37,607 bases of DNA from Planctomycetota bacterium (GTDB lineage: Bacteria > Planctomycetota > Phycisphaerae > WQYP01), in the NCBI GenBank assembly GCA_021805985.1, contig JAJZDN010000040.1:1-37607 (forward strand). Direction: 5' to 3'. A program made the translations under genes and the position numbers. Under the pieces are notes generated by a model, which made no database searches, was not told where the DNA came from, and worked only from the letters and a program-made list of their open reading frames with translations. Positions 294 to 36,009 of this stretch are shown here, in pieces (the stretch's first letter is position 1; each line of letters begins with the position of its first letter).

Positions 294-1580
294 ATGACCA
301 CGATGAATTCGCGCACCGGCACCGGAGCGGTTGCCGCGGCACCGGCCGTGCGGTTACTTTCCAAGATCACCTGTCCCCATTGCTGGAATATTTGCCATCC
401 CGAGGACATCCTCTGGATAAGCTCTCATCCAGATCTCATGGGTGATCCGGTGTTGGGAGCGGAACATCCTGCACGGTTTTTGCCCAGCCGCTTCACGGTG
501 GGCGGTCAGGCTTTGGACGCTTACGCGACAGTTTGCCACCGCATGGCCTGCCCGCGCTGCCACTTGCCTTTACCACGCGAGGTCATCGAAAACACGCCGC
601 TGTTCATGTCCGTCATTGGCGGCCCCGGCAGCGGGAAATCCAATTTTCTAGCCGCCATGGTCTGGGAATTACGGCAACGATTGCCCGCGGGCTTTTCTCT
701 TGCTTGGTCGGATATCGATGCCGCCGCAAATCATCTGATCAATGGATATGAGGAACAGCTTTTTCTGGCGTCCGACCCTGACGCGCTAACCTACATTGCC
801 AAAACGGAAGAGCAGGGAGATATTTACGATGTCGTAAAAATCGGGGGCCAGAGCACGGCATATACCCGTCCATTTCTGTTTTCACTTAAGCCGACACCGG
901 AGCATCCGCGCTTCAAATATTCCGCGGAGGTTTCCCGTGTGGTATGCGTGTATGACAATGCCGGTGAAAGTTATTTGCCCGGCGCGGACACGCCGGCGCG
1001 GCCTGTTACGCAGCATCTGGGCAAGGCCCAGATGATTTTGTTCCTTTTTGATCCGACGCAAGATCCGCGGATGCGAGCCCAGTGCGGCGCGTTCAGCAAT
1101 GATCCGCAAATTAAGGCAGGACGAAAAACCCTGCGACAGGAATCTTTGCTTAATGAGGCGGCCAGCCGTATGCGACGCTATGGCGGACTGGGGCCGCAGG
1201 TGCGAACCGACCGTCCTTTGGTCATTTGTGTAAGCAAATCCGATATCTGGGCACCGCTGATTGATGAGGACGTGATGAAAGAGCCTTATCTTCCCGCAGC
1301 CGATTCTTCCAGGATGCAGGTGGATATTGCTCGGATCAAACGCATATCGGGCAAGGTGCGGCAGCTATTGCTTACAACTACCCCGGAAATTGTCTCCATG
1401 GCGGAGGCTGTTTCCGGAACGGTAATTTATGTTCCGGTCAGTGCCTTGGGCCACGCCCCGGAGCCGCACCCCAATGACGCCAATCTGCTGGCCATTCGTC
1501 CGCGCGATATTCGGCCGCATTGGGTGACGGTGCCAGTTTTATACGCTCTGGCTCAATGGACCTCCAGCAAGTTGGTTTAG
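294..1580 (+). CDS. Zinc-ribbon P-loop GTPase, double-GTPase (DO-GTPase2-like) family
   Basis: Predicted 428-residue cytosolic GTPase. A zinc ribbon is split by about 55 residues: C27-x2-C30 (TCPHC) and C86-x2-C89 (ACPRC). It is followed by a Walker A loop GGPGSGKS (about residues 109-116), a YDNAGE segment in place of the usual DxxG switch, and VSKSD in the position of the NKxD guanine-specificity motif. This layout fits the TRAFAC-type double-GTPase family encoded beside GAP1 proteins in predicted bacterial conflict/signalling systems; the next gene is indeed a GAP1 protein. The ATG at 294 is chosen because GGAG at 282-285 sits 8 bases upstream; a TTG at 288 is also in frame. No signal peptide or membrane span is visible. 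The GTPase assignment is firm at the P-loop level; the exact subfamily is from recognition of pattern and context. Its role is inferred as the nucleotide-dependent switch of the cluster. Confidence 0.8.
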   Translation: MTTMNSRTGTGAVAAAPAVRLLSKITCPHCWNICHPEDILWISSHPDLMGDPVLGAEHPARFLPSRFTVGGQALDAYATVCHRMACPRCHLPLPREVIENTPLFMSVIGGPGSGKSNFLAAMVWELRQRLPAGFSLAWSDIDAAANHLINGYEEQLFLASDPDALTYIAKTEEQGDIYDVVKIGGQSTAYTRPFLFSLKPTPEHPRFKYSAEVSRVVCVYDNAGESYLPGADTPARPVTQHLGKAQMILFLFDPTQDPRMRAQCGAFSNDPQIKAGRKTLRQESLLNEAASRMRRYGGLGPQVRTDRPLVICVSKSDIWAPLIDEDVMKEPYLPAADSSRMQVDIARIKRISGKVRQLLLTTTPEIVSMAEAVSGTVIYVPVSALGHAPEPHPNDANLLAIRPRDIRPHWVTVPVLYALAQWTSSKLV

Positions 1581-1642
1581 ATGGTGCAGCGCAGGCTTCC
1601 GACGGATGCGGCGGTGGCAGCGAAACGGTGGAACGCAAAAGC

Positions 1643-4087
1643 ATGGGATTAGAACTCATTTACACCTCAGCCCGGAAGGGGCTTAAGCCCGGCAGCGTGG
1701 GCTTCTGCACGGTGGCCATGTCGCGGCAAATGCCACCCGCGCTGGCCGCGACGTTGGAATCTCTAAGCGGATACCGGCATTTATACACCGCCGGTAACGG
1801 GGACTATGCGGAAAACCCGGTGAATTTCTGCCATTATCTGGTTCCCGATCGCGGACGCGTGGCGCGGGTACTGGCGCGCATCGGGGCGGCACCGGCGGAC
1901 TACACGGGCCGAACCAACAAACTGGCCCATTTTTTAGTCTTGGATCCCGCAGAACTCGCTTTGGCCGGACCGGCATGGTTGCTGGGGCGTCCGGGCCTTA
2001 TGCAGGAACTGTGGCAGGGCGAGCCACGCTGGATTGACCCCCCGTTGGTGATTCCCAACGGCGATTCGCAAGCCGCCCGGTGTGCGGCGTGGGAGCGGGT
2101 CAACGGTGACGCGGGCTGGGCCGGCGAACTGCTGCGGCGATTTTGTGAGTGGCCCGATGCACCGGTGCACGTTGTGTGCAAACCTGGGACACCCACGCTG
2201 GAACTATTTGCCGAGGCGCTGGCGCTGCTGCCGCCCGACGTGCGCTGGCGGATTGGCTTTAGCACCTATTTCACGGGTATTCCCGCAGCCGGGGTAAAGT
2301 GCCATTGGCGAGGAATCATCGCAGGTACGGCGGCCGCGGAGGGGGCGATTGATCCCAAGTCCGTAATTGATCTTAGTCGCCCGTTGGGACGTGCTCCGGA
2401 TGGGTCATATAACGTTGCGGCGCGCGAAGGCCGAATCGTTGATCTTCCAACCGTGAGCTCTCCAGCGACTCCCAGGGAAACGCCAATCACACTGGCCGGG
2501 ACGCCGGAACTGTCGGAACGGAAAGCAGGCGGTACAAAGCCAATAGAAGCTGGTCTCCTGGATCTTGCGCCACTGGACGCCAAGCCCAGAGCCACACGAT
2601 TTTTTCATCCGCATAAACTGGATCAGCCCAATACGCAGCCGCACACCCGGCGGAAAAACCGTTGGATTTTACCCGCAGTTTTGGGAGCGGTAGCGTTTGT
2701 TATTGTTATGGCTTTAGGTGTATGGTTTGTACTTCCGCATTTGGAGTCCATGGGGCAATTGGGTCAGGCGATGCTCGTGACAGGCGGCCCCGGCCGCTCC
2801 ACCAAGACCGGCAGAAAAGTGCAAGTGCCTGCCAAGCCACCGCCGCACGGGCCTAAGGCGCTCGCACCGGCCGCGGCCCATCCAGGGGGGACGCCCGTGC
2901 CCACTACGGCGAAGGCTGGTGCTGCCAAAACAGTCGGCACGGCGAGACCCACGGCGGTTGCGACGCAAGCCGCAAAAGCCGAGAAAGTGGCAAATGTCAT
3001 GCCCAGCGCGCAGGCTCAATTTCTAGCGAATTCGCGCATGCCTCCGAGCGTGCTCAACGAACCGATTTTCGAGGGGACCTCTTCCGGGCTGGTCCCTCTA
3101 GGCCACCCGGCAAAGCCGATGTACGTCCGCGTGCGGGGGATCGAAAGTTTTCTGGTAAGGTTGCCGCCGGCGTTGCGACGAGGGACCTGGGCACTGAAAT
3201 TAGGCGATAAGCAAATAGCGATGAGAAGGCCCTACGTGCTCGAGTCGGCCAAGCCCACGGGCCGTCTTTACAGCGTGTGGTGGGTGCCGAATCCAGCGTC
3301 GGGAGCGGGGCTTGCCTCGGCATTCCCGCGCCGGCTGTGCACCATATCCGTAGCGAAGCGCGGCGGTCCACTGGAGGTCCAAGCCGAGAAGGTTGGCGGT
3401 CGGAATTCTCCTGATCAAATAGTGGTGGACGTGCGATTGATAAGCGGAAGGAGAGAGCGCATCCAGTTCCTTGCCCCCGGGAAAGCCTCCTCCAAGTATC
3501 TGAATCACTCGAAGGTAATTCCTCTGAGTTCGGAAACGCCAGAAGCAACTGAGATTGCATCCTCGCTCAAATCCTTATCGCGAATTTGTTTGGTAAAAGA
3601 ATCTCTGTACCCCCAAAGAGTGTACCCTCTAGGTAGGGCGGGGAAAAAGCGCAGATCTTTCTCGATTGGCCTGGCCGTCGGCACTGTTAGCGGTGCCAGA
3701 CGATGGGTGCTCAAATTTAATCTTGCGCACGGGAAAATATTCAATAATTTCGGGGAAATTGACGGAGCCCTGCACATACGGTTGGGCCATTGGACGCAGA
3801 AGACCGCTGGCGAGGCGCAAATTGTGGAACAGTACGCCAAGGATGTAGGAAACCGGGAAAAAAACGAGCCGGCAAAGCGCCAAACAAAAGACGTTATCCT
3901 GAGCGCTGAGAAGAATGATCTAAACAGAGCAGAGGGAGTTCTGGCGTCTGATGGCACTCGCAAGGCTCACGTCACCAGAGAACTGGAAAGGCTGAACGCA
4001 TTAAAGAGCATTACGTTCCGCGTCGACCTTTACCCCGGCGGCCCGGTGCTCGAGCGCTTTACGTTTAAGAGAAGGGGGAGCAAATGA
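1643..4087 (+). CDS. GAP1-N2 protein with transmembrane span and large outer domain
   Basis: Predicted 814-residue membrane protein. Residues 1-265 match the GTPase-associated protein 1 N-terminal type 2 pattern: ELIYTSARKGLKPGSVGFCT, then a GYRHLY block and WRIGFSTYFTGIP. A charged linker is followed by a single span at about 338-362 (WILPAVLGAVAFVIVMALGV), an Ala/Pro/Lys-rich stalk (about 383-452), and an outer domain ending in VDLYPGGPVLERF. The start at 1643 gives the canonical MGLELIYTSA beginning; longer in-frame starts at 1520 and 1556 overlap the preceding gene or lack a ribosome site. GAP1 proteins are predicted partners of double-GTPases; the adjacent gene supplies one. The fusion of GAP1 to a membrane span and outer domain is notable and suggests coupling of an outside signal to the GTPase, which is inference. 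Its stop overlaps the next start (ATGA). Confidence 0.78.
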   Translation: MGLELIYTSARKGLKPGSVGFCTVAMSRQMPPALAATLESLSGYRHLYTAGNGDYAENPVNFCHYLVPDRGRVARVLARIGAAPADYTGRTNKLAHFLVLDPAELALAGPAWLLGRPGLMQELWQGEPRWIDPPLVIPNGDSQAARCAAWERVNGDAGWAGELLRRFCEWPDAPVHVVCKPGTPTLELFAEALALLPPDVRWRIGFSTYFTGIPAAGVKCHWRGIIAGTAAAEGAIDPKSVIDLSRPLGRAPDGSYNVAAREGRIVDLPTVSSPATPRETPITLAGTPELSERKAGGTKPIEAGLLDLAPLDAKPRATRFFHPHKLDQPNTQPHTRRKNRWILPAVLGAVAFVIVMALGVWFVLPHLESMGQLGQAMLVTGGPGRSTKTGRKVQVPAKPPPHGPKALAPAAAHPGGTPVPTTAKAGAAKTVGTARPTAVATQAAKAEKVANVMPSAQAQFLANSRMPPSVLNEPIFEGTSSGLVPLGHPAKPMYVRVRGIESFLVRLPPALRRGTWALKLGDKQIAMRRPYVLESAKPTGRLYSVWWVPNPASGAGLASAFPRRLCTISVAKRGGPLEVQAEKVGGRNSPDQIVVDVRLISGRRERIQFLAPGKASSKYLNHSKVIPLSSETPEATEIASSLKSLSRICLVKESLYPQRVYPLGRAGKKRRSFSIGLAVGTVSGARRWVLKFNLAHGKIFNNFGEIDGALHIRLGHWTQKTAGEAQIVEQYAKDVGNREKNEPAKRQTKDVILSAEKNDLNRAEGVLASDGTRKAHVTRELERLNALKSITFRVDLYPGGPVLERFTFKRRGSK

Positions 4088-5322
4088 GCAGCAACTCTGG
4101 GTTCCTGATCCGGCACCATACAAGGGCGTGCACGTTCTTGGCCGCGGTAGCGTTGCTCTCGCCCGCAATGGTCCTCGCGCAATCCGCCGAACGGGCCGCT
4201 CCGACTGCCATTCCGGCGCAAGCTCCATCGGCAGGCGGTTCCCTGACGGTGGTCAATAAGCCGATTTTTGCTCCGCCGGTGGCGGGGGCACTTCTTCTCT
4301 CCGCTAACCCCCACCCGATCAGCGGGAGCGTGGTAGTTTCCGGAATTGAAAAGTTCCGAATTGTATTCCCCCCGGCTTCTCCGCAGGGGAAACTCACGAT
4401 CTCTGGGGTCGCAGTAGCTTCCCAAGGCCCGTGGAAACCGCAGCGCTGGTATGCGGTAAGCGCGCTGGGGATCCGGGCCGTTAAGCTGGGCATCCAGTGG
4501 CAGCGCACAATCCAAGGCATCGGTGCAGCTTCCACGCCACACTCCGTCCGCGCTGCGGATATCAGCATTGACGGCGTTAGCGGCACCTTTCAAATCTCCG
4601 CCGGTTCAGCGCTTGCAGCCGGAGGCGGAGACATTGGGCGGGGCCGGGGCTGTTTGGATCAGATGGTTGTGGAGGTACGCGCTAATAACGGGAACACCGA
4701 AAAGATTCAATTTCTCCCCGTAGCGCCGCAACACCGGGTCGTGTTGCTGGGGCTGTCAACGCCGGCTGCAATTCGTATTCATCTGCCTACCGCAATTGTG
4801 GCCGCAGGAACCGCCCCGCAATTATCATTGGCGGCAGCGAATGTAGACATGCGAAGTGGCGGGACATTTTACCGCGCCCACCGGAGCACCTCTGTTAATG
4901 GTCGCAGCCAAGTGGTGTGGGTCAACCTGGCACCCGGGGTGGCAGCACCATCGGGCAAGCCGGCATCGGGTAAGTTGATTCGGGTTTGGTTCCGCCTGAC
5001 GGGGCGGACCGCCAAGACCAACTACGCCGAAGCACGGCTGCTGGCGGCCACTTTTTATGTTCGACTGAAATCCGAAATGCGGGTGATCGCCCGCGCGCCG
5101 GTAAGTGTGTTTGAGAGTCAGGGGCTGGTTAAGATATATCGCAGGGACAAACGGCTTTTGGCGGAAGTAGTGACGCGCTACCGGCGGTTGCGGGCGCTAA
5201 GGAAACTTACGCTTTGCGTCGAACTTTACCCCGGCGGCCCGGTGTTGGAATCGATTACTTATGAAAAGCCCACGGCCGCAACGCGACCGGGGCTGGCCAA
5301 GCCCACCGGGCGGAGTCCTTGA
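4084..5322 (+). CDS. Secreted protein paralogous to GAP1 outer domain
   Basis: 412 residues, starting in an ATGA overlap with the preceding gene, so the two are translationally coupled. The N-terminus has a basic stretch followed by a hydrophobic segment FLAAVALLSPAMVLAQ, consistent with export (signal peptide or anchor, about residues 1-33). The body resembles the outer domain of the preceding protein in the same order: NKPIF against NEPIF, DQMVVEV against DQIVVDV, EKIQFLP against ERIQFLA, and CVELYPGGPVLES against RVDLYPGGPVLER near the C-terminus. No catalytic motif is recognised. It is best read as a tandem duplication that freed the outer domain as a separate secreted or membrane-attached subunit. 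Function unknown; it may form a complex with the GAP1 protein on the outer side of the membrane. Confidence 0.72.
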   Translation: MSSNSGFLIRHHTRACTFLAAVALLSPAMVLAQSAERAAPTAIPAQAPSAGGSLTVVNKPIFAPPVAGALLLSANPHPISGSVVVSGIEKFRIVFPPASPQGKLTISGVAVASQGPWKPQRWYAVSALGIRAVKLGIQWQRTIQGIGAASTPHSVRAADISIDGVSGTFQISAGSALAAGGGDIGRGRGCLDQMVVEVRANNGNTEKIQFLPVAPQHRVVLLGLSTPAAIRIHLPTAIVAAGTAPQLSLAAANVDMRSGGTFYRAHRSTSVNGRSQVVWVNLAPGVAAPSGKPASGKLIRVWFRLTGRTAKTNYAEARLLAATFYVRLKSEMRVIARAPVSVFESQGLVKIYRRDKRLLAEVVTRYRRLRALRKLTLCVELYPGGPVLESITYEKPTAATRPGLAKPTGRSP

Positions 5323-5375
5323 ATAAGGAACCCGGCTCCACGGACTGGAAGTTTTAGGACTCAAAGGGATTTTTT

Positions 5376-8282
5376 ATGGCAGAAGCACAGGAAGTGGTAG
5401 ACCGGTTGCGTGATGTGCTCCTGGCGCAGGATCAATCCGTGACGCCGGAACTCCGGGACTTGGCGGTCAGTTATGCCGAGCTTTGTCGCTCCGTCAATGA
5501 GCGCATCCGTCGTTGCTCACAACTGCTGCGGCAAAATCTGCGCACAGAAGCTGTGCACCTGGCGGAAGCCAATCCGAATGTTCTTGACCAATTGACGATT
5601 TTAGATTTTCCCGGCCGGGCCGACTGGCAGCAGTTGTGCGTGCAATACGGTTTTCCGGAAGCACCGCCGCTGGATATGGATTCCGCAGCGGCCATCAATG
5701 ATGCATACACTGCAGTGCAACCCGTTGCCGTGCTGTTAGCAAAACATCGCCTTTTGGCAATGGGCTTGGCTCCGCTGCCGTTGCGGCTTGCAGTGATGCG
5801 GGAGATCGCCCGGCTGGATACCACGGCCGCCTTCTGGGCCGATGACATCCGGCTTTTTGAAACCGCCCGGCTGGGAGAAATAAGAAAAATTTTAACATCG
5901 GGTAGTGCTGCCTCCACGACCGTAGAGAGTCTGCACAGTGAGCTAAGTAACGGATTATGGAGCGTACCGGTACCGGCGGACCTGATGCGCGAAGTCAACA
6001 CACGCATTGAAAAATTCCGCGATCAAGACGTGCAACGCGACATGCTGAAATTACTGCCCGAGCTGGACGCGGCCTACTCCGCTATGGACCAGGACGCGTG
6101 TCGAAAGTTGCTGTCGGATTGCGCTGTGGCTTTGCGGGGCCGCCGGCCGGAAGGTGAAATACAAGAGCGGCTCGAGGCGGTGCAATCATGGTTGCACGGG
6201 CTGGAGCAGGCCCGCACGTTGCAGCGCGACTTTGAGAGCGCATGCACGGCACTGGAACAAGCAATAGATACCGGAAAGGCCGCCGACATTATTGAGCAGG
6301 CGTACAAATCCACTACGCGATTCAGCCTGCCGATTTCGCTGGAGCTTGAGGGCCGCTACAAACAGACGATGGCCCGGCACCGGCGCGACGCCGAACGTCG
6401 GCGGAAAATGATCTATTTCACAGTGGCGGCAGCAGCACTGGTGTTGCTGGCGGCTATTGGATTATTTGCGTTTTTCACGTTTCGCGGCCACCAGGCCCGG
6501 GACTGGGATAAGGTGATTAAAACAGCCACGGCGGAAGTAACGCACACGGGCGATTTGCCGGTCGGGCAAAAAATTTTAGCCCTCTTGGCCAAACAACCGG
6601 GATATGTGCAGGCCGCACCGATCGTTGCGGCAGACGTTGAACAACTACAGACTGCTGTGACGGCGGAGAAAGCTCGGTCGGCACATTATAAGGCCCTTTA
6701 TCAACATGGGGCGCGGCTGCCGCTGGGCGGTGCGCGTGCACTTAAGCTCATGTCTGCGGCGCAGGCGATCGCGCTAAGGCCCGATGAGAAAAGTCAGGTG
6801 AGCCGATGGTTTCGTAAACGCCATGCCTATGACCAGCAGCGGCAGGCGCGGCGCGATCACGCGTTTAATCAGGCGGCCAGGTCCTTGCTGGATCAGGTGG
6901 ATTTGCGTTTAACCACCGGTGATATCCGGCGCGATCCTTATGCGGCTCAAAAAACTTTGCGGCAGTTGGATGGCCGGTTGAAATTACTGGTGGCGACCAA
7001 GGGCGTATCACAAAATCTTTATGCCGCTGAGACAGCTTCCGTGCGGGCCGCCCTGAGTCGGCGGAATGCGGCAATTTCCGGTGTCATTTCCGATGCGGCG
7101 GCTTATGCTCAAATATTAAGCCCGCCATTGACGGTGGGAGATTACATTTCCTCTCTTGCGGCTTACAAGAGCGCCCATCCGGATGGACGCTACCTATCAG
7201 TAGTGCAAGGATTCTTGGAAAAATCTGCCGCTTTGCGGGCCGTCGCTGCGTGGAGCGAATTACGCAAAAGCTGGGTGGGGAGTTTGTCCAATCCGCAGCG
7301 CAGTGAGGCCCAGGCACGCGTGGCGGCAATCGCGAAATACCTTACGAAGTTTCCCAAATCGCCGTTTATCCAAACCGCCAAACATTATTCCTATTATCTC
7401 TCTCAAGCTCTGGCCGCGACCGCCGCGGATGGACCCTGGTCGGGGCAGTTTACCGGAGTGCTGCACAATAAGTTGTTGCGCGGGCTGGATACACTTTCCA
7501 CTTCCGATGGGAAAACATATTTTGTTTTGCCCGGTACCGCAATCAGCAAAAATACCATAGGCAACGACAAGGTGCTTTGCTTTAAGGCGATTACTTCGGC
7601 GGACACCGGTTCGCGAGAGCTCATTGACCTTCCCTTGGGCGTATCGCTTACTTCGGATAAGCCGCTGCGCAGTCCGCAGGCGATATTATCCCGGCAGTTG
7701 GCCAACATGATTAACGCTATGTCGCTGGGCCAGTGGGACACCATCGGGTTTAGGGAAATACGCCTGCTCAAATCATCCTCGGCTAACCCCGTGGTAAGGG
7801 GGCTGCTGCTTTCGGATGTTATTTCGCTCAATAAGCCGTTTCTCTCTAAAAATGCATCGCGGGCTTTTTCGTCCACAGTTCGTATCTTGCACGCGTTGCA
7901 TTTGGAGAACGTCAATTGGTTGGATCCAGCCAAGACCGTGTCCTCCCATATTGCCCATGCGGTGCAGCGCGCCTTCAATGGCCTGCCGGACCTCAAGGCG
8001 ATGATTGGCGGGTGCCAGCAGGAAAACCAGGCCTTGGCACATGCGGTGGATTTGAACATTGTCAGGCTGGCTATATGCCGTAAAGCGGCCGCCGGGTACG
8101 CGCTTAGTTGTGCGCTGCCGCCGGCGAACGGGGATACTGCCTGGGTCGTGGTGGCGAGCAGTACGAAAGACCATCTGGAAAAAATCGGCGTGATGCGCTC
8201 TGGGAAATGGATTCTGGTACCGAAAACCGAATCCGGAATTTCCGACGGGGCCTTGGCATTTATTACGGGCGGCGGGGAATAA
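5376..8282 (+). CDS. Large single-span membrane protein of unknown function
   Basis: 968 residues with ATG at 5376 preceded by AAGGGA six bases upstream. Residues 1-340 are strongly helical and charged, without recognised motifs, and look cytosolic. One membrane span follows at about 344-368 (MIYFTVAAAALVLLAAIGLFA) after a run of arginines, giving a cytosol-inside topology. The remaining 600 residues are predicted outside: a helical region rich in Ala, Gln and Arg up to about residue 700, then a less charged C-terminal part starting with DGPWSGQFTGVL. No enzyme motif was recognised. It lies 53 bases after the secreted paralogue and 31 bases before the GYF_2 gene, so it is probably in the same operon. 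A scaffold or sensor linking outer and inner components is plausible but only inferred. Confidence 0.65.
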   Translation: MAEAQEVVDRLRDVLLAQDQSVTPELRDLAVSYAELCRSVNERIRRCSQLLRQNLRTEAVHLAEANPNVLDQLTILDFPGRADWQQLCVQYGFPEAPPLDMDSAAAINDAYTAVQPVAVLLAKHRLLAMGLAPLPLRLAVMREIARLDTTAAFWADDIRLFETARLGEIRKILTSGSAASTTVESLHSELSNGLWSVPVPADLMREVNTRIEKFRDQDVQRDMLKLLPELDAAYSAMDQDACRKLLSDCAVALRGRRPEGEIQERLEAVQSWLHGLEQARTLQRDFESACTALEQAIDTGKAADIIEQAYKSTTRFSLPISLELEGRYKQTMARHRRDAERRRKMIYFTVAAAALVLLAAIGLFAFFTFRGHQARDWDKVIKTATAEVTHTGDLPVGQKILALLAKQPGYVQAAPIVAADVEQLQTAVTAEKARSAHYKALYQHGARLPLGGARALKLMSAAQAIALRPDEKSQVSRWFRKRHAYDQQRQARRDHAFNQAARSLLDQVDLRLTTGDIRRDPYAAQKTLRQLDGRLKLLVATKGVSQNLYAAETASVRAALSRRNAAISGVISDAAAYAQILSPPLTVGDYISSLAAYKSAHPDGRYLSVVQGFLEKSAALRAVAAWSELRKSWVGSLSNPQRSEAQARVAAIAKYLTKFPKSPFIQTAKHYSYYLSQALAATAADGPWSGQFTGVLHNKLLRGLDTLSTSDGKTYFVLPGTAISKNTIGNDKVLCFKAITSADTGSRELIDLPLGVSLTSDKPLRSPQAILSRQLANMINAMSLGQWDTIGFREIRLLKSSSANPVVRGLLLSDVISLNKPFLSKNASRAFSSTVRILHALHLENVNWLDPAKTVSSHIAHAVQRAFNGLPDLKAMIGGCQQENQALAHAVDLNIVRLAICRKAAAGYALSCALPPANGDTAWVVVASSTKDHLEKIGVMRSGKWILVPKTESGISDGALAFITGGGE

Positions 8283-8313
8283 TGCAGCCCAGAAACAGCA
8301 AGGAGAATTTGTG

Positions 8314-9066
8314 ATGGCTGGTGAAACATTTTTTGTGCGCTCACGAGGCAAGGTGACCGGGCCTTACGATGTAACCGGGCTGCAGCGCCTGGCGAAACTG
8401 GGGATGTTATCTCGTGTGCATGAGATATCCACGGATAAACAGACATGGTCTTCCGCAGCTTCAGTTCCGGGAGTACTTCCGGAAGCTGCCCTGCCACGAG
8501 TTCCCAGAGTCCGTCCGGACCATAACGCTGCCAGTGCACCGTCAAACTCCTACGAGATGGTAGACCCACCGCCTATGGAGGCCCCGCCCGCGCCAAGCAG
8601 CCCGCCCGCCCCCCAACCGTCCGCCGGGAACGGACCAATGGGGGCTTGTGGAGCCTGTGGCAGAGTGATGGAGGCTGCACTTCTTATTAACGATCGCGGC
8701 TGGCTTACTTGTCCGTCCTGTTATCAGCGGACGGTTTCTGCCCCGACGCCCAGGGGGCAATCCCCGCTGGGCGAATCCCCGGTATATGAGGAACGTACGG
8801 AAAGTTACCACGGGTACGCTGTGGCTTCTTTGGTACTTGGAATTGCGGGCTTGGTGGTACCGTTTCTCGGGTTAATCTGCGCGCTCCTGGCTGTCGTGTT
8901 CGGCCCGGTTGCGCTACGTGGTAATCGCAGAATTGGCAGCCGTGACGGTAACGGGATGGCGCGATCGGGTCTGATTATGGGCATTATTAGTCTTTCGCTC
9001 TATGCGATCTGGTTCATCTTGGCAGGCATTGAGGCCGCATCCATGGCCCATCGTTTTCCCCACTGA
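8314..9066 (+). CDS. GYF_2 / zinc-ribbon / DUF4190 membrane protein
   Basis: 250 residues in three parts. Residues 1-55 form a GYF_2-like fold (FFVRSRGKVTGPYDVTGLQRL, then a TWSSAASVPG end), a module thought to bind proline-rich peptides. A Pro-rich linker (PPPMEAPPAPSSPPAPQP) follows. A small zinc ribbon has paired cysteines, CGACG and CPSC, about 25 residues apart. The C-terminus has two hydrophobic spans (YAVASLVLGIAGLVVPFLGL and SGLIMGIISLSLYAIWFIL) of DUF4190 type, so the N-terminal modules face the cytosol. The ATG at 8314 is favoured by AAGGAGA at 8300-8306; a GTG at 8311 is possible. As last gene of the + strand group it could dock the soluble GTPase or kinase at the membrane, since the cluster contains several Pro-rich linkers. 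That role is inferred. Confidence 0.75.
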   Translation: MAGETFFVRSRGKVTGPYDVTGLQRLAKLGMLSRVHEISTDKQTWSSAASVPGVLPEAALPRVPRVRPDHNAASAPSNSYEMVDPPPMEAPPAPSSPPAPQPSAGNGPMGACGACGRVMEAALLINDRGWLTCPSCYQRTVSAPTPRGQSPLGESPVYEERTESYHGYAVASLVLGIAGLVVPFLGLICALLAVVFGPVALRGNRRIGSRDGNGMARSGLIMGIISLSLYAIWFILAGIEAASMAHRFPH

Positions 9067-9094
9067 TATTTATCAGATTCCGATCGGCCGGAAT
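9063..9094. terminator. Possible convergent-gene hairpins
   Basis: Two short inverted repeats lie between the convergent genes ending at 9066 (+) and 9109 (-). CTGATA/TATCAG (9063-9076) overlaps the + strand stop codon, and ATTCCG/CGGAAT (9077-9082 and 9089-9094) encloses a six-base loop. Neither has a clear run of T. They may act weakly as terminators on both strands. Confidence 0.3.
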
Positions 9095-9108
9095 TATTCA
9101 TCGGCAAC

Positions 9109-10734
9109 CTAGATCTCCTTTAATCCTTCTACCAGCCTCCAAGCCGCTTCCGCCATCGCAAGTCTTCCCGCCGCACGCTCTATTGTGCTCTGACTATTCG
9201 CAAGCTCATGTTCGAATGCCCTGCGAACCGCCTCTCCTGCATCGATTCGTCGCATAATTTCTCCAACCATGCGTGTTCCCTTGACCATGGCTTCCTCTTT
9301 CAGCGCTGCAAATAGATTGTCCGGCAGCGCGGAGGCGGGCCGGAGGATCTCAGGTAGTCCAGACAACGACCGCAGTACGACTTCCGCATCCGCCCAGGAA
9401 CCCTTCGCGGCACTCTCGGCCCGCATGCGCAAGCGTTCATGCTCCCGGCAGAGCGGTGGCATTTGCTCTTGGGCGGCCTCCACCGCCCGACGGCGTCGCT
9501 CGACCTCGCCGCGTATCGCTCGCACCTCCTGCTCAAGGGGAATAATTCTCCAAGGGGATGCAGCGTTTAGCTTCAGGCAAGCGGCCTGGACGTGGCGGGG
9601 AAGTGGCGCAGGTGTTACCGCGATCTCGGGGACGCGGGCCGGTGGAAAAGGACGCAGGAGTTGCTCGGCCCTTTCGCGCAGTCCACGGGCCAATTCTTGC
9701 ACATGGGCATTAAGCCAGCAATGAATGCGCACGCCTGCAAACGGGTCGAATGGGTCTGGCTCCCGCGTGGCAAGTGCGCACCACGGACAGGTAGCCAGCC
9801 CCACAAAAAAAACGTGCCCAGGGTCGGCATTGCACCTGCGGATCCGCTTGAGCAGCATTTCCAGGGCCAGCCGCCATTGGCCAGCCGTCGGCCGCCCGAG
9901 GTACTGCTGCCCCACAAAAGCCCTCCTGAACAATGCTGTCAGCTCTGACGATGCCCCGTAGGCACCCGGTGGCGGAACCGCCCCATCGGGTAAGGATAGA
10001 ACGCAATTTCCGGAGCGGATCATATTCCCCATGCCCGGCGGCTCTGCGCCCCCGCCTGCTGCAGAATAAAACGGGTGTTTTCCGAGGTATAAAAGCTGGA
10101 ATAGGATAACCGCTAAACCGAAAGTGTCGTGCAGAGGGGTAAACCGAACGTTTCCAAGATTGCACCCCTGCAACTCCGGCGGCGTGTACTCCTCAACGCC
10201 GACACCAGATGCCGGATAGAACGTGCCATCCGCGCCGCGAAGCTGGAAGGAGTCACAGTCAACAAATTTGATCAGCCCCTTTGATGTTACTCGAAGGTTC
10301 CTCTGGTTCACATCTCCGATGACGATTCTATACAGGTGCAAGGTTTCTACGGCCGCCGCCAAGTTGCGGCCCACATAGACGAGAAATTGCCAGTCTTTGT
10401 CCGGAAAATATTTCGCCCGGGTTTTAGGTTGGTAGAGATCATGGATTTCCCGGCCACCCACAAAGCGCATCGTGAACCCGCACATCCGACCACCCGCCTT
10501 CTCCAGAAGGAGGGACTCCGGCCAGGCGGCAACGCCCCGTATCTGGTCTGCTGTGGCCGACAGCATCGCCCGCAGTTTAGATTCGAGGTTGCCGACCAGC
10601 CGATTTGGATGGTACAGCTTGGCTACGCGTGCCGGATATTCCGCCAGTTCATAGATTTCCCCCTCACCACCGGAGCCTACGCATTTGCCCAGGGTCAGCC
10701 GGTTGCCATGCTCATCCCAGTAGGTCGCCATCAT
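9109..10734 (-). CDS. Divergent serine/threonine protein kinase (COG4248-type)
   Basis: 541-residue cytosolic protein with a kinase fold. Visible motifs are the glycine loop GSGGEG (about 20-25), VAK with the ATP-binding lysine (K39), a catalytic loop IGDVNQRN with Asp 141 and Asn 146, and VDCDSF in place of DFG with the metal Asp at 159. HRD is replaced by IGD and the loop lysine by Asn, as is usual in the kinases coupled to TerY-like vWA proteins. A CPWC pair near residue 316 and a coiled-coil-rich C-terminus (about 400-541) follow, like COG4248 kinases. The start is set at 10734 because GGCAGG lies six bases before it; 10749 and 10731 are alternatives. The gene overlaps the PP2C 3' end by about 20 bases, so translation is coupled. 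Likely substrates are components of the neighbouring GTPase module (inferred). Confidence 0.82.
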   Translation of the reverse strand: MMATYWDEHGNRLTLGKCVGSGGEGEIYELAEYPARVAKLYHPNRLVGNLESKLRAMLSATADQIRGVAAWPESLLLEKAGGRMCGFTMRFVGGREIHDLYQPKTRAKYFPDKDWQFLVYVGRNLAAAVETLHLYRIVIGDVNQRNLRVTSKGLIKFVDCDSFQLRGADGTFYPASGVGVEEYTPPELQGCNLGNVRFTPLHDTFGLAVILFQLLYLGKHPFYSAAGGGAEPPGMGNMIRSGNCVLSLPDGAVPPPGAYGASSELTALFRRAFVGQQYLGRPTAGQWRLALEMLLKRIRRCNADPGHVFFVGLATCPWCALATREPDPFDPFAGVRIHCWLNAHVQELARGLRERAEQLLRPFPPARVPEIAVTPAPLPRHVQAACLKLNAASPWRIIPLEQEVRAIRGEVERRRRAVEAAQEQMPPLCREHERLRMRAESAAKGSWADAEVVLRSLSGLPEILRPASALPDNLFAALKEEAMVKGTRMVGEIMRRIDAGEAVRRAFEHELANSQSTIERAAGRLAMAEAAWRLVEGLKEI

Positions 10735-11518
10735 TCTTGTCCTGCCCATGCCCGCAGATCAGCACCAGAGAGCGGTCGTCATCGACCCGGCTTTCCATAG
10801 ATTCTGACCCCAGAAATTGGCGTAGCTGCCGTTCAATGACGCGGCGCGGGGTACTGCTGCGGATCGCGTCACGCAGTTGGGCGAACAGCGGGTAGAAAAA
10901 CGGCCGATGGGCCTTCTGTTCGCATAGGTTCAGCGCTATCGGACTTAAGCCATCGGTAAAAAGCGCTACCTCGGTAATGGGCGTGGCTCGCAATTCAAAT
11001 CTCAGATGCTCCTCGAAGCGGCTTTCCGTTAAAAAGCTTGTGGTGTTAACGAACTCTCCGTTTTCCGGCCAGAAAACGGGAGCATATTCGCCGCCACATC
11101 CTGCGACGATGACCGAATCGCCGATTTGGGCGAAGGCGCTGCTATCGGGCCCGAGCATCGCAAGCGCGATAGTCGTGGCGTAGCGCCGCATCGGGCGTCG
11201 GCGAGCATGGCGGGAGATCGCGCCTCTCGCCTGCTCGAACATCTCGAGAATCTGATCACGGCCGACATCGGCGGCTCCGGAGTGGTCTGCAACAAATCGT
11301 TCAGCCGAGTTAAGCAGTGCATCGCCGGCCGTCCTTGCACCAATTCGCCCGAACTCGGCGCTGCCCGCACCGTCCGCCACGACAGCTATCGCAATGGGCA
11401 CGCCCCTCGGTTGAACAAGGCGGCAACGGCAGTAGTCCTGGCAACGCTTACGGCCTTCCCTGTGTGCCCGCCCAGCCACGGCCGCAGTCCATGCGTGCCA
11501 ACGCCAAGGTCCGGTCAT
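10712..11518 (-). CDS. PP2C-type protein phosphatase
   Basis: 268 residues. PP2C motifs are in order: an N-terminal QD at residues 27-28 after GRAHREGRKRC, the metal-binding DGAG at about 49-52 (VVADGAGSAEFG), an IGDSVI strand, LFTDGL, and a C-terminal run of aspartates at about 246-248 (DDDRSLVLI). It should dephosphorylate Ser/Thr residues and oppose the kinase encoded directly downstream. The start at 11518 is chosen because it forms an ATGA overlap with the vWA stop codon and begins just before the conserved fold; a longer form from 11620 would overlap the vWA gene by 106 bases. A vWA-PP2C-kinase order is a known triad in TerY-linked systems. Confidence 0.85.
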   Translation of the reverse strand: MTGPWRWHAWTAAVAGRAHREGRKRCQDYCRCRLVQPRGVPIAIAVVADGAGSAEFGRIGARTAGDALLNSAERFVADHSGAADVGRDQILEMFEQARGAISRHARRRPMRRYATTIALAMLGPDSSAFAQIGDSVIVAGCGGEYAPVFWPENGEFVNTTSFLTESRFEEHLRFELRATPITEVALFTDGLSPIALNLCEQKAHRPFFYPLFAQLRDAIRSSTPRRVIERQLRQFLGSESMESRVDDDRSLVLICGHGQDKNDGDLLG

Positions 11519-12279
11519 ACTGCCTCCCAGTTCGAGGTGGCCGGCAGGCTCACCCTTTCGCTGCCACCCTCCCCGCCGGCGCGGGAATTTGAAACGGATC
11601 GCTGCGACCTGGAGAGCCATTGGAAAAGTTCGCGGAACCTCAATCCGGACAGCTTTTTTGGAATGGTGTTGGATAGTCCCGCAAGCATCCCCATATCTGC
11701 AGCGGCCCCAACCCCTATTGGAAAAAAGGCTATTGCTTTCTGCGATTCCAAACGGCGCAGACGCTCCGCGGCGATAGAGCAGTCATCGGTGGAGGACCCG
11801 TCGGTCAGCAGGAAGACCCAGGGGCGGTAGTAGTTGATGCGGTTGGCTCGGTATGACTGTTTGCGCCGCTCCACGGCATCCAAACCAGCGACGATGGCTG
11901 CCCCCATCGGTGTGTCGCCTTCGGGGCGCAGGATAGGCGGCACGAAATTGTCCACAGTTGTAAAGTCGCAGACGGTTTCGACCCGTCTGCCGAAGGTGAT
12001 GATGGACACCTCCACGCGCTTCGCGGCCAGGGGGTCCTCGGTGAGGGAGGCCTTGTAGAATTGCAGGCCCCCATTCAACTCTCCGATGCGCGTGCGCCCA
12101 CCAGAAGCCACCCTGAAAGTCTGGCCGTCCTCGGTGCAGCTGTAGCCCAAGTCCTGAAATTCCCCGCCCTCGATGGTGCCCATCGAGCCGGAGGTATCCA
12201 ATAGCAGCAGGCACGCGCAGCGAGGCTCGGGATTTTCGGCGAACTCAGCTCCGTGACCAAGGACGATTTGCGTGGCCAT
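11515..12279 (-). CDS. vWA domain protein, TerY-like
   Basis: 254 residues with a von Willebrand A fold. The metal-ion-dependent adhesion site is complete: D28-T-S30-G-S32, Thr 123 in GDTPMG and Asp 160 in LLTDGSSTD. It lacks a signal peptide and is probably cytosolic. Compared with ordinary TerY proteins, there is an insertion of about 30 residues between the DTSGSM motif and the following helix (ELNGGL), containing a Cys and several Gly. It is first in the vWA-PP2C-kinase operon. The ribosome site GGGGGA lies just before the ATG, and a good sigma-70-like promoter stands about 50 bases upstream. In the known triads the vWA protein acts as adaptor for phosphorylation-controlled assemblies; here it probably bridges the kinase/phosphatase pair to the GTPase module. 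Confidence 0.85.
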   Translation of the reverse strand: MATQIVLGHGAEFAENPEPRCACLLLLDTSGSMGTIEGGEFQDLGYSCTEDGQTFRVASGGRTRIGELNGGLQFYKASLTEDPLAAKRVEVSIITFGRRVETVCDFTTVDNFVPPILRPEGDTPMGAAIVAGLDAVERRKQSYRANRINYYRPWVFLLTDGSSTDDCSIAAERLRRLESQKAIAFFPIGVGAAADMGMLAGLSNTIPKKLSGLRFRELFQWLSRSQRSVSNSRAGGEGGSERVSLPATSNWEAV

Positions 12280-12505: not shown

Positions 12506-13378
12506 ATGAAATTCAAACATATTTTTATCGCGGTTGTTGTGGCGGTGGCGGCAGTGGGTTACGGTTCCAGTCCTGCCTCATACGGCTCAACGCCTGCGTC
12601 GATCGCCTTTAACAAGGTCATGGGACCTGCGATTTTAAAGGCGGAGCTGGCGCTGCGAGCGCTTAACAAGAATTTCCCCGCCAATGCAACTGACGCGCAG
12701 CGTCAGCAATTGCATGCTCGGGAAGGTGCAATTCTTGCACGTCTGAAGAGCACACTTTTAAAGAAAAAAAAGCTGTCGGCAATATTTACGGTGACCAATG
12801 TCCTTGCGGACAATCCTAAAGGAAAATTCGAAGTCGAGGGAACCATCAAGTGGCATCAGCCTGCCGTGCGCAGCCGTGCCGTGCGCCAGGCTATTGCAAC
12901 AATCAATAAAACCTATGAATCCACCATGGAGACGATATCGGAGAACAGCTACAGCGGATATGCCGATCCGCGCGAGGGCAGGAGCCAGGACGTTCAAGCC
13001 GCTGCCGAGGTACGCCGTACCGAACTTCAAGGGATCGCCAGCGAGATCGCTCCCCCTCCGCAGCAAATATTTGTACGCGACGCCGATCATGGTGTGTTGG
13101 CTTGGAAAAAGGGACAAGTTCAGACCGTTTTTGGGAGAGTAACATCGGTGGAGGTCGGCCCTGTTTCGATCGGCGACTACGCCCACACCCAGGGCGATTA
13201 CGTGGCTTGCACGATCCGGATGCGCTGGATCGCGGCTCATGCGCCCCAGGCGGCCAAGGAACCAGCAGTGCCGAAACGGCCGTCATCACCTGCGGAATTC
13301 CAAATTATGCTCAAGGGCGGCTCAAAAATCCATGTGACCAGCTGCGCCAAACATGGACAACGAGAACGCAGGAGTTAG
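12506..13378 (+). CDS. Secreted protein of unknown function
   Basis: 290 residues from the ATG at 12506, which has GGGGA at 12494-12498 upstream. A TTG at 12470, nine bases after AAGGAGG (12454-12460), would add 12 residues. The N-terminus is a clear export signal (MKFKHIFIAVVVAVAAVGYG). The mature part is mixed helix and strand, with the segment KGKFEVEGTIKWHQPAVRS and a Lys/Arg-rich C-terminus. No family was recognised and no catalytic motif is apparent. The stop codon lies inside a tandem GGAGTTA repeat (13371-13391), so the last residues may vary between strains. Divergence from the vWA operon suggests, but does not prove, a link to the signalling module. Confidence 0.6.
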   Translation: MKFKHIFIAVVVAVAAVGYGSSPASYGSTPASIAFNKVMGPAILKAELALRALNKNFPANATDAQRQQLHAREGAILARLKSTLLKKKKLSAIFTVTNVLADNPKGKFEVEGTIKWHQPAVRSRAVRQAIATINKTYESTMETISENSYSGYADPREGRSQDVQAAAEVRRTELQGIASEIAPPPQQIFVRDADHGVLAWKKGQVQTVFGRVTSVEVGPVSIGDYAHTQGDYVACTIRMRWIAAHAPQAAKEPAVPKRPSSPAEFQIMLKGGSKIHVTSCAKHGQRERRS

Positions 13379-13391: not shown

Positions 13392-13451
13392 GAAGGGTTT
13401 GGAAGGCGCGGTGAGCAATGACTTAACGAATTGAAGTTGGCGAACGGGATC

Positions 13452-13513
13452 TCACGAGAGCACCGGATGATAATCCGGTGGTTGATCTAATGCCACGAGC
13501 CAACCACCGGATT
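13452..13513. repeat. Hairpin and divergent copy of a dispersed repeat
   Basis: AATCCGGTGGTTG (13472-13484) and CAACCACCGGATT (13501-13513) form a perfect 13-bp stem with a 16-base loop. Its left part, GAGCACCG at 13458 onward through CCGGTGGTTG, resembles the end of the 64-bp inverted repeat at 35279-35342 and 36966-37029. No T run follows, so a terminator role is uncertain. Confidence 0.7.
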
Positions 13514-13518
13514 GGACG

Positions 13519-13623
13519 AGATTTCAGATTTCAGATTTCAGATTTCAGATTTCAGATTCCAGATTCCAAATTCCAGATTCTAAATTCCAAATTCCAGGTT
13601 CCAGGTTCCAGGTTCTAAATTCC
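13519..13623. repeat. Array of 15 heptamers
   Basis: Exactly fifteen 7-base units run head to tail with gradual change from AGATTTC (five copies) through AGATTCC and AAATTCC to AGGTTCC and AGGTTCT. No gene is seen from 13379 to 13680; this array, the hairpin before it and a C/G-rich run make up most of the gap. The complementary unit (CCTGGAA, TCTGGAA) recurs at 37141-37175. Confidence 0.9.
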
Positions 13624-14874: not shown

Positions 14875-16980
14875 GTGAGCCAGATAACCCCCACCCCAAG
14901 CGGTTCTTCGGTCCGGATTGGTGAAGTAGCTGCCCCCTTGCCGGAGCATAACCATTCGCATTCGGAACATTCTCATGCAGTCGATGGCATTGCCTGCGCC
15001 TGCGGCCATGACCATGAGGCCGGCCCGCAGGGCCAAGCGGTGGGGCATAGCCATTCCGGCGTGAGTTTACAATTGCAGCTTTCGGTTCTCGTGCCCACCA
15101 CGGTAGCGTTATTAATTTTAGCCGGTATTTTCTACCAGTTCCCCACGGAAATACCGATTGCCCGTGCGCTGGGTCTGTTGGCAGCACTGATTTCCGGCGG
15201 GCCAATTTTCTGGCAGGCGGCCAAGGGATTATCCCGCGGCAGAACCAATGTCAATGAACTCGTGGCGTTAAGCATTATCGGAGCCATTGCCTTGGGCTGG
15301 CTTATTGAGGCTGGCCTGGTGGCGTTATTGCTGCAGGTTGGTGCATTAATTGAACAGGTGGCCACGGAAAGCGCCCGCAACGCGGTGCTGGCCCTCCAGA
15401 ATCTGGCACCCGTACACGCCCGTGTGCGCCGGGGTGAAAAAGATGAAATTATCCCCGCTGAATCGCTGCGTGAGGGCGATATGCTGGTTATTGAACCCGG
15501 CGAACGCATCGCCGGTGATGGCACCGTGGTCACGGGTTCCACCAGCGTGGATGAATCCATGGTGACCGGGGAATCCATTCCGGTTGATAAGACCGCGGGG
15601 GGCACGGTTTTAGCGGGTACCATTAACCTGACCGGGTCGGTGCAGGCCCAGGTTACACGCGTCGGTGAACATTCGGCATTGGGTCAAACCATCGCTTTGG
15701 TGCGGCGGGCGCAGCAGTATCAGCCGCAGGTGATTCGTGCTGCTGATCGGTTTTTCTCCTTCTATACGCCGTTGGTGCTGATCTTGTCGGTGGTGGCATT
15801 TTGGGTTTCCGGGCAGCCGGGGCGCATGATCACCATGTGGGTGGTGGGTTGCCCCTGCGCGATGCTGCTGGCGTCGCCATTGGCTATTGTGGTGGCCCTG
15901 GCCCGTGCCAGCCGTAGCGGTATTCAAATCAAAGCCGGGCCGTTTGTGGAAGCGTCGGTGAATCTGGATACGGTGGTGTTTGATAAAACCGGCACGCTGA
16001 CCACAGGCAAATTTATTGTCCATAGCGTGCGTCCGGCGGAAGGCGTGGATGAAAGCCGATTGCTGGCTCTGGCGGCGGCGGTGGAAAATCGCAGCAGCCA
16101 TCCCTTGGCCAAAACAATCTGTTCTTATGTGCGGGATCGCGGGGTGGCGTTCCATGAAGCAGCCGATGTAAAAATTCTCGAAGGTCTTGGCGTGGAAGCC
16201 GAAGTAGATGGGGGAGTGACGCGCGCGGGGTCCCTTAAAATTCTTCCACCGGAATTAGCTGCCGGTGCGGGCAATGTGGAGGCTGCGGAATCGGAATTGC
16301 CGCTGGTGCCGGTGTATGTGATGCACGAAGGGCGCTTAATGGGGTCCATCTGCCTGACGGATGAAATTCGCCCCGAAGCGCGCCGCGCCATTAAGCATCT
16401 GCGGAATCTGGGTGTGAAGCGCATTGTCATGATGACCGGTGACCGCCGGAAGACGGCTCAAATGGTCGGCCGTGCGGTCGGCTGTGATGATATCTATGCC
16501 GAACTGCTGCCGGCGCAAAAAGAAGAATTAATTCGGCAGTTGCAACGCGGGGACCATGGCGTGGCCATGGTGGGTGAAGGTATTAACGACGCGCCATCTC
16601 TGGCGGCAGCTACGGTGGGCATCGCGCTGGGGTTGCGGGGTACCGATGCGGCCATTGAAGCGGCGGACGCGATTCTCCTGAAGGATGATCTTACCCGTAT
16701 TCCGTTGTTGATTTATCTGGCTCGTCAGACGCGTGTCGCGATTTACCAAAATATCGGATATGCTTTATTTTTCGCAATCTTCGCATTGGTAGCGGCGGCC
16801 TTCGGCCTGTTCGGCCCGGTGGTTGCGGCCCTGATTCACATGCTGGCAGTGGTTGTCATAGCGGTGAATTCGGTGCGGTTGGCGGGTGATGTCGGTGTGA
16901 ACCGCAAACCATTGCCCATTGGCGTACGCAAAAAAGCAGCGCCCGAGGGAATCGGTGCCCCGGTGCTGTCTCAGGCGTGA
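14875..16980 (+). CDS. P1B-type heavy-metal-transporting ATPase
   Basis: 701-residue pump starting with GTG at 14875. An N-terminal tail rich in His (EHNHSHSEHSH, then CACGHDHE and GHSHSG) replaces the usual HMA domain and probably binds metal. The core has the actuator loop TGES, a membrane CPC motif at 326-328, the phosphorylated Asp 370 in DKTGTLT, SHP of the nucleotide domain, MTGD, and GEGINDAP. In the last motif Glu 568 replaces the nearly invariant Asp of GDGxND. The final span contains AALIHMLAVVVIAVNSVRL, with a His where zinc and cadmium pumps have Asp. CPC with His-rich tail suggests export of Zn, Cd, Co or a related divalent ion; the exact ion is uncertain. The 246 bases before it hold no gene; an isolated TATAAT is at 14659-14664. 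Confidence 0.88.
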   Translation: MSQITPTPSGSSVRIGEVAAPLPEHNHSHSEHSHAVDGIACACGHDHEAGPQGQAVGHSHSGVSLQLQLSVLVPTTVALLILAGIFYQFPTEIPIARALGLLAALISGGPIFWQAAKGLSRGRTNVNELVALSIIGAIALGWLIEAGLVALLLQVGALIEQVATESARNAVLALQNLAPVHARVRRGEKDEIIPAESLREGDMLVIEPGERIAGDGTVVTGSTSVDESMVTGESIPVDKTAGGTVLAGTINLTGSVQAQVTRVGEHSALGQTIALVRRAQQYQPQVIRAADRFFSFYTPLVLILSVVAFWVSGQPGRMITMWVVGCPCAMLLASPLAIVVALARASRSGIQIKAGPFVEASVNLDTVVFDKTGTLTTGKFIVHSVRPAEGVDESRLLALAAAVENRSSHPLAKTICSYVRDRGVAFHEAADVKILEGLGVEAEVDGGVTRAGSLKILPPELAAGAGNVEAAESELPLVPVYVMHEGRLMGSICLTDEIRPEARRAIKHLRNLGVKRIVMMTGDRRKTAQMVGRAVGCDDIYAELLPAQKEELIRQLQRGDHGVAMVGEGINDAPSLAAATVGIALGLRGTDAAIEAADAILLKDDLTRIPLLIYLARQTRVAIYQNIGYALFFAIFALVAAAFGLFGPVVAALIHMLAVVVIAVNSVRLAGDVGVNRKPLPIGVRKKAAPEGIGAPVLSQA

Positions 16981-19157: not shown

Positions 19158-19234
19158 CTTCAGGCTGGAAAACCTCGGCCCAAGTTTATCAGGTTGACAG
19201 GAAAATTGAGTTACGGAATCCTTAAGGAAGTATC

Positions 19235-20179: not shown

Positions 20180-20239
20180 GGCTCGGCTTTTAATGCCCGG
20201 CCAATGGATTAGTACAGTAAGGTTCTCAGGAATGATCGC

Positions 20240-27337: not shown

Positions 27338-27452
27338 GCGTGGCAATATTTTCGGGCGAGCGGCAAAATCGACGGCATAAATGCCGGCGCTGCGGGAATG
27401 GTCCGGCCTGGAAACCCGCACCCCAACGGCCCGCCCGGATTTATTGCCACGC
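27338..27452. repeat. 115-bp element with GCGTGGCAATA inverted ends
   Basis: The element begins with GCGTGGCAATA (27338-27348) and ends with its exact reverse complement (27442-27452). Read on the - strand it resembles 30817-30932 over most of its length, including ATGCCGTCGATTT and CCGAAA near the end. Short length, inverted ends and repetition fit a MITE-like or REP-like element; no gene is inside. Confidence 0.7.
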
Positions 27453-27668
27453 CCTAAATAAATAAAAGCAGCATTTTTTCTTGACTTCAACTCAATACCG
27501 TCTTAGTATTACCTGCACTTGTAGTGCAAAATGATCGGGCTGATGGATTACGCGAAGCAAAGCGAGCGCATTTGCAGTTTTGCGCCCAAGTCGCAGATTC
27601 AGTTCGATTAGACTTTGAGATCTTTGAATCGGACGGGCCGGCGGCTTCCTAGAAAATTGGAGATTTTT

Positions 27669-30751: not shown

Positions 30752-30816
30752 GTCAAAGAGTATACAAGACTTGGGCACCGGCAAACAGCGCGTGCCCCCG
30801 CGCGCAAAGAAGTTGG

Positions 30817-30932
30817 GCGTGGCAATACATCCGGGCAGGCCACGGGAGTGTGAGTTTTCAAGAAGAACTATTCTCTTAGCTCTGGCATGGATGCCGTCGA
30901 TTTCGCCGCTTGTCCCGAAATATTCCCACTGC
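30817..30932. repeat. Second copy of the GCGTGGCAATA element
   Basis: Starts with GCGTGGCAATA (30817-30827) and ends with a degraded TATTCCCACTGC. It is the inverse orientation of 27338-27452, with shared stretches such as ATGCCGTCGATTT. With the following direct repeat it fills most of the gap from 30752 to 31156, in which no gene is supported. Confidence 0.65.
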
Positions 30933-31027
30933 CCATGGATCCACTGCCCATGCCGAGCGCGGTAGCCCAGATCCGTGGTGGCTGGGAAAATGGGGTTGGG
31001 ATATACTGTTCTTCATTGAACGAGCTT

Positions 31028-35846: not shown

Positions 35847-36009
35847 GGTCGTTTTTTTGAAAGAGGGGCGGCAGGCCAAAAAAGGTTTTCCGCGGACAGG
35901 CTCTCGGTTGGGGCAATATGGTTGTTTTGTGGGTTCTCGGTTTCATTTTTGTCGGCCATTGCGGCTGGCGTGGAAAAGAGGCCAATTGTTTGTTTTACGG
36001 AGTAAAGTT

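Follow-up and report, generated by a model that had tools for sequence, protein, structure and literature searches.

A planctomycete DO-GTPase/GAP1-N2 module, its linkage to a MotA/TolQ/ExbB-like gene set and its exchangeable kinase–phosphatase–vWA neighbours

This study concerns a 37,607-nucleotide stretch of DNA from a Planctomycetota bacterium of the Phycisphaerae (GenBank assembly GCA_021805985.1, contig JAJZDN010000040.1; contig C195 in our numbering, in a genome of 4.68 Mb), which we call the window, and a predicted membrane-spanning GTPase system encoded near its left end. Eight genes stand in two convergent sets between positions 294 and 12,279, as the original prediction had described from the window alone, and all eight open reading frames were confirmed in place. 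Genes A to E and a further gene, I, lie on the + strand and genes F, G and H on the − strand, and X, Y and Z denote genes of the same locus outside the window. The distances between A, B, C, D and E are 62, −4, 53 and 31 bases and the H, G and F genes overlap, so that two operons fit the arrangement, with 42 bases between the convergent neighbours E and F.

A double-GTPase-type protein and a GAP1-N2 protein had been described, and both were recognized in the + strand set, A through its DO-GTPase2 homologues and B through Pfam matches. Protein A (294–1580, + strand) carries an N-terminal Zn ribbon (CPHC...CPRC), a P-loop (GGPGSGKS), DNAGE and KSD. A PF19993 search of its own genome at E ≤ 0.001 gave no match, though hmmscan of A against DO-GTPase2 gives 22.9 bits, under the cut-off of 27. 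This model was matched by 25 of 27 A homologues, and the P-loop, the DNAGE motif (with its glutamate in Walker B) and KxD are all invariant among the homologues; A has one N-terminal Zn ribbon here and an extra one in three other loci (L022, L023 and L025). By its sequence, A is a divergent DO-GTPase2. Protein B (1643–4087, + strand) scored 100.5 bits with GAP1-N2 and 50.1 bits with GAP1-M (cut-off 24 for each), and it was without a Pfam match, GAP1-C included, past residue 245, where a membrane span (346–364) and a beta-rich outer domain of about 450 residues with a C-terminal YPGGPV motif stand. Some GAP1-N2 proteins are reported to have a span and an outer domain in that place (PMC7159879). 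The predicted fusion of GAP1 through the membrane to an outer domain was found. The assignment to DO-GTPase/GAP1-N2 systems rests on this core pair of A and B.

Three further membrane or secreted proteins had been expected and were found on the + strand by hydropathy, which was used for the spans and signals of B, C, D and E: C has a signal or anchor, D has one span and E has two. Protein C (4084–5322, + strand; ATGA overlap with B) is an exported or anchored paralogue of the outer part of B, with 24–31% identity and the YPGGPV motif common to both; the earlier gene list was correct but had missed this duplication. The structure model of this outer domain of C and B, with a predicted local distance difference test (pLDDT) value of 49, was too poor to interpret. 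No FNIII match was found by Pfam in B, C, D or E, although such repeats are said to evolve fast and the C model is too poor to judge them. Protein D (5376–8282, + strand), a conserved third component without a Pfam family, was modelled with confidence (pLDDT 87.8) and is mostly helical in the model: a helical cytosolic part of about 340 residues is followed by a span at 348–366, a long outer part, also helical, and alpha/beta structure at the C-terminus. Protein E (8314–9066, + strand) combines a GYF-like domain, a Zn ribbon and two spans (DUF4190, 49 bits; weak GYF_2 and Zn-ribbon matches). Sequence searches of the PDB with E, the A profile and X gave nothing useful. Together, these results support A to E as a membrane-spanning DO-GTPase/GAP1-N2 system.

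The locus extends to the left of the window. Positions 1–89 of the window are identical to the last 89 bases of contig C116 (an exact suffix-prefix match), which carries Z, X and two Y genes of the same locus, divergent from A, with X at 1.9 kb from the C116 end. The locus is therefore only partly contained in the window. Sister locus L021, which is unbroken, has the same gene order. The original prediction had placed the genes inside the window correctly and could not show the continuation of the block beyond window base 1. In the window family, X-Y-Y and Z, a Zn-ribbon membrane protein, form a divergent operon upstream of A. The X protein of the sister genome G007, which belongs to the same genus, scored 39.8 bits with MotA_ExbB (PF01618; cut-off 22.9), and the copy of the window genome is 93% identical to it. 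Both types of Y are small proteins with one N-terminal span, one invariant aspartate in it and a coiled coil. A single N-terminal span with an aspartate is the plan of MotB, ExbD and TolR.

The whole block is an insertion. At the empty site of G003, another member of the genus, the PPIase and pfkB genes are 1 kb apart, and in the window genome they flank the block; homology with the empty site stops at C116:63163 and resumes at window position 13652, the right edge. Therefore, the motor operon, A to E, the F-G-H triad and gene I make up one insertion of about 19.5 kb. The same flanks occur in G006 on a short contig, and G007 has a related island with other cargo elsewhere in its genome. Gene I (12506–13378, + strand) encodes an exported protein and forms the right end of the island both here and in G007. 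Base composition was dropped as a mark of foreign origin because island and flanks are alike (G+C 0.53–0.60 against 0.54, with similar third-position G+C). A 91-base element lies near both island ends (window 13447–13537 and C116:64267–64356; 87% identical, same orientation), and the G007 island has a related copy at its left end (C49:12337–12503); the element contains an inverted CACCGGAT/ATCCGGTG stretch and is possibly a recombination substrate. An interspersed repeat of about 115 bases was seen in the window at 27338–27453 and 30816–30935 (76% identical, opposite orientation), next to the G003 empty site (L210:4193–4286) and in G006 (L211:3453–3571).

The + strand module is conserved far beyond these relatives. 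The comparison covered 80 named GAP1-N2 loci of other genomes, together 1.17 Mb of sequence, and 24 from an even sample of the phylum, giving 104 loci that are not fully independent, as the two sets overlap in part of the family. Where the flank of a named locus is long enough, A adjoins B on its upstream side in 70 of 73 cases and D follows B in 49 of 51; in the phylum sample, A is next to B in 23 of 23 loci and D in 19 of 19. A GYF-like neighbour was present in 26 of 40 named loci. When the 80 loci were clustered and searched with profiles, X nearly always came with one or two Y genes. Of the 40 named loci that reach 7.5 kb or more beyond B on the downstream side, 17 have X, and 22 loci have it when any position is counted, so that the motor is common in module loci without being universal. 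The order A-B-D-E-X-Y1-Y2, in one operon, was seen repeatedly among loci of Planctomycetota and Lentisphaerota, and Desulfamplus has the order A-B-D-X. Eleven loci belong to other GAP1-N2 types that have neither A nor D, and X was absent from all of them. Three loci (L177, L178 and L184, in G233, G402 and G437) showed a B-A-B-D arrangement, with two GAP1-N2 genes around one DO-GTPase gene and X downstream.

The linkage of X to the module was estimated by searching PF01618 in 20 phylum-sample genomes, chosen for a GAP1 locus with A, B and D or a neighbouring module part, and in three family genomes. Nineteen of the 20 have a GAP1 match above the cut-off, and in 13 of these a MotA_ExbB gene lay no more than 10 kb from GAP1-N2, against about 0.5 expected; the twentieth, G400, was left out because its GAP1 match is below the cut-off and on the other strand. 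Counting G400 gives 14 of 20, for which a Poisson tail of 4e-16 was computed; as the genomes share ancestry, this value exaggerates the significance. The genomes with linked X span several families. In total, the 20 genomes contain 134 PF01618 copies (2–11 per genome), among which the GAP1-N2-linked X copies form a distinct low-scoring set (about 35–46 bits, against up to 111 for the others).

We consider it reasonably probable that a conserved trans-envelope apparatus is encoded here, with A to E as its GTPase half and with X and two Y, just left of the window, as its other half. For the broader proposal, the prospects are about even: these loci may represent an undescribed family in bacteria of the Planctomycetota–Verrucomicrobiota–Chlamydiota (PVC) group and Desulfamplus, made up of a DO-GTPase, a GAP1-N2 protein, the scaffold D, a GYF adaptor, an ExbB-type channel and two non-ExbD aspartate partners, and would parallel the myxobacterial gliding motor with unrelated switch parts. 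The idea of a transmembrane device in the original prediction stands for the membrane-spanning system, and more strongly than first stated, as the conserved set includes a putative proton-channel motor; its extension to a joint device with the triad, discussed below, is not supported.

The anatomy of the apparatus is well supported, and from it we infer the following mechanism. The DO-GTPase A would be a state switch at the inner membrane face. B would read the state of A through its GAP1 part and pass it via its span to the outer domain of the kind shared with C, and in this way B and C would link the switch to the cell exterior. D may serve as a helical membrane-spanning scaffold that holds the parts together, and E, with its GYF domain, Zn ribbon and two spans, as a cytosol-facing docking protein for cytosolic partners. 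The X and Y pair would provide a proton-driven motion or conductance that is allowed or stopped by the GTPase switch. If these proteins form one complex, in which X and Y conduct protons and the GTPase gates them, the result would be a GTPase-gated, proton-driven trans-envelope machine working like the Agl-Glt motor of Myxococcus without being a member of it.

As the output of such a machine, we favour surface or envelope work over secretion or the killing of an infected cell. The gene directly before A in G013 and G015 encodes a kinase that carries a GYF domain at its C-terminus, and the module loci of these genomes (L028 and L026, respectively) stand beside a Tad-pilus-like locus (FHA-CpaF, TadB and TadC) with an FHA protein. 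Both the pilus-like neighbours and the GYF kinase fit a surface role.

Several results weigh against this apparatus. X was absent within the available flank from 23 of the 40 named loci that extend at least 7.5 kb downstream of B. The Y proteins had no match to Pfam ExbD, and hhalign of the Y profile with true ExbD N-termini gave a probability of 1.8%; Y as a true ExbD is thus unsupported by both searches, and its likeness to ExbD is one of place and topology. A Foldseek search of the PDB with the D model returned nothing at E ≤ 0.001, the matches being generic helical ones. Finally, the linkage can come from shared mobility instead of one complex.

A conflict role has been proposed for DO-GTPase/GAP1 systems from their gene neighbourhoods (PMC7159879), and the present locus could on that published inference be an anti-phage or suicide system, in which the GTPase would be switched by a signal sensed outside or in the cytosol, after which X/Y would open a Zorya-like ion path that stops the infected cell. 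The patchy distribution and the island insertion would suit such a role, as would the methyltransferase and TerY-P-type genes that occupy the same slot, and the closest PADLOC models to X are those of ZorA (30.4 bits). However, this match is limited to the MotA core, with 345 residues in X against 461–1063 in the ZorA models; ZorC, ZorD and ZorE are absent, and A to E have no specific PADLOC match. The gene set is also stable across phyla, without the variable effectors typical of conflict systems. We regard a conflict system as unlikely.

The − strand genes encode a complete vWA–phosphatase–kinase triad, as had been predicted, with Pfam matches, kinase motifs and the metal-ion-dependent adhesion site (MIDAS) all present. 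Kinase F (9109–10749, − strand) scored 31.2 bits against a Pkinase cut-off of 31.7, but its glycine loop is intact, as are the catalytic residues of GDVNQRN and DCD. On its C-terminal side, after the kinase domain, it has a CPWC motif and no Pfam Zn ribbon, where TerY-P kinases have a Zn ribbon or OB fold. Phosphatase G (10712–11518, − strand) matched PP2C_2 with 147 bits, and H (11515–12279, − strand) is a standalone vWA protein (VWA, 36 bits) with a complete MIDAS (DTSGS, T, D) and no N-terminal signal. F, G and H can be classed as a TerY-P-type triad in one operon of overlapping genes, and they are variable cargo of the island. At its C-terminus, the kinase of a related triad in G010 (L029) extends into a stretch that looks helix-hairpin-helix-like by eye and is apparently missing from F. 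A second, divergent triad (L030, G015:C11) lies beside several dynamin-like GTPase genes and a membrane peptidase-like gene, and looks like another conflict or stress locus.

The original prediction joined both sets into one device, and held in advance that they would be unrelated neighbours if the homologous sets occurred mostly apart in related genomes, which is what we found. Among 61 relatives, a GAP1 protein was present in nine genomes and the vWA protein in three. A to E occur without the triad in G007 and in the family members G018 and G025 (G025 ends within D at a contig end), and G010 has the triad, with a vWA protein 78% identical to H, without GAP1. In G007, the slot between E and gene I is filled by an unassigned open reading frame and a DNA methyltransferase-like gene (a function read from sequence motifs only). 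Across 392 genomes of the phylum, GAP1-N2 was found in 36 and vWA in 20; four genomes have both, and the window genome alone has them on one contig. No triad was detected in the 80 named loci, where a score above 30 bits counted as a match to a triad member, or in the 24 phylum-sample loci. The profiles were built from three triads, so that remote ones could escape; even the most divergent of these triads, at about 30% identity, was still recovered with plain tblastn.

These data show F-G-H to be a cassette of its own, exchangeable for other genes, that occupies a variable slot of the island. The convergent arrangement with 42 bases between E and F, the shared insertion and the GYF kinase before the GTPase in G013 and G015, through which phosphorylation may feed the system, could all be read as signs of one eight-gene device in which the triad phosphorylates and resets the GTPase/GAP1 membrane complex. 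Moreover, GAP1-N2 with kinase, PP2C and vWA genes is a published theme, restricted to actinobacteria and covering about 10% of GAP1-N2 neighbourhoods (PMC7159879), and this pairing makes a functional tie possible in the window genome, but not a conserved one. With the triad in none of 104 loci, its slot otherwise occupied in G007, and triads standing alone in G010 and beside dynamin-like GTPases in G015, we find one device quite improbable, and annotation of the module should leave out the triad beside A to E. It is highly improbable that X/Y are simply a Ton/Tol-like motor of the ordinary kind with a tendency to lie near A to E, since, common as MotA_ExbB genes are and although the window family has X/Y in a divergent operon outside that of A to E, the linkage is far over chance, the linked X copies are a distinct set and the Y partners are not classical ExbD.

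To the right of the island, three consecutive genes for SPFH/HflK-HflC-like membrane proteins (window 17082–21385) lie behind a P-type ATPase gene (14875–16980), and two exported proteins with PEP-CTERM-like C-terminal tails are encoded at 27615–28754 and 35857–36777.

Each half of the block was rightly described as known from comparative surveys. DO-GTPase/GAP1-N2 systems, and their planctomycete version rich in GYF and transmembrane proteins, were reported by Kaur et al. 2020 in eLife (PMC7159879), and TerY-P triads of vWA, PP2C and kinase are well known (PMC11090510). The present locus shares with the former a Zn-ribbon DO-GTPase directly upstream of GAP1, a C-terminal span in GAP1, a GYF membrane protein and a patchy distribution. 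It differs in D, which has no Pfam family, and in that a MotA/TolQ/ExbB-like channel and two one-span aspartate proteins are part of the conserved set; no FNIII protein was found here, within the limits given above. None of ExbB, ExbD, TolQ or MotA occurs in the main text of PMC7159879, and in the literature searched there was neither a later paper on these GAP1-N2 systems nor experimental work on DO-GTPase/GAP1 systems. What appears to be new is the linkage to the motor, the conservation of D, the completion of the locus and the status of the triad as cargo, although priority is not certain.

F, G and H agree with TerY-P systems in gene set and in the complete MIDAS of the vWA protein, and differ in that CPWC is the only Zn-ribbon trace seen in F and that no ter, restriction or CoCoNuT genes adjoin. 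The vWA force-transducer loci of PVC bacteria contain a tolQ-like gene, two unlike tolR-like genes, a TPR gene and a membrane-tethered periplasmic vWA protein (PMC12204202). The tolQ-like gene and the unlike tolR-like pair are in common, whereas no DO-GTPase/GAP1 is described there and H is standalone, signal-less and linked to a kinase and a phosphatase; these loci were rejected as the same system because of the different gene set. With Zorya, the locus has in common a MotA-type channel with a partner and a possible defence use; membership was rejected on the PADLOC results, the short X without the long ZorA tail, and the missing Zorya-specific parts, that is, an OmpA-type domain in Y and ZorC/D/E.

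GltJ of Myxococcus has a Zn finger and a GYF domain, as in E. In Myxococcus, AglR-AglQ-AglS form a motor of the TolQR type, and the effectors of MglA include AglR and GltJ (PMC3169522, PMC12288465). The resemblance to Agl-Glt lies in one TolQ-type channel, here X as a putative MotA/TolQ/ExbB subunit (PF01618, about 40 bits), with two single-span partners alongside a GTPase. The parts differ: the Myxococcus switch MglA is a small GTPase of the Ras-like kind, and AglQ/AglS have matches to ExbD/TolR, whereas here there is a DO-GTPase and a Y pair without an ExbD match. MglA/MglB-type domains had no Pfam match at the locus, which encodes a DO-GTPase and GAP1, and no glt genes were identified, although no search aimed at glt was made. 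Agl-Glt membership by sequence was rejected, as the Y pair is not ExbD and MglA/MglB are absent at the locus. The conserved putative proton-channel motor and spanning scaffold suggest a concrete and testable mechanism, the gating of a motor by the state of a GTPase. If this is true, the conflict reading of this GAP1-N2 branch would need revision, and planctomycetes and their relatives would own a second, independently built GTPase-controlled envelope motor beside Agl-Glt.

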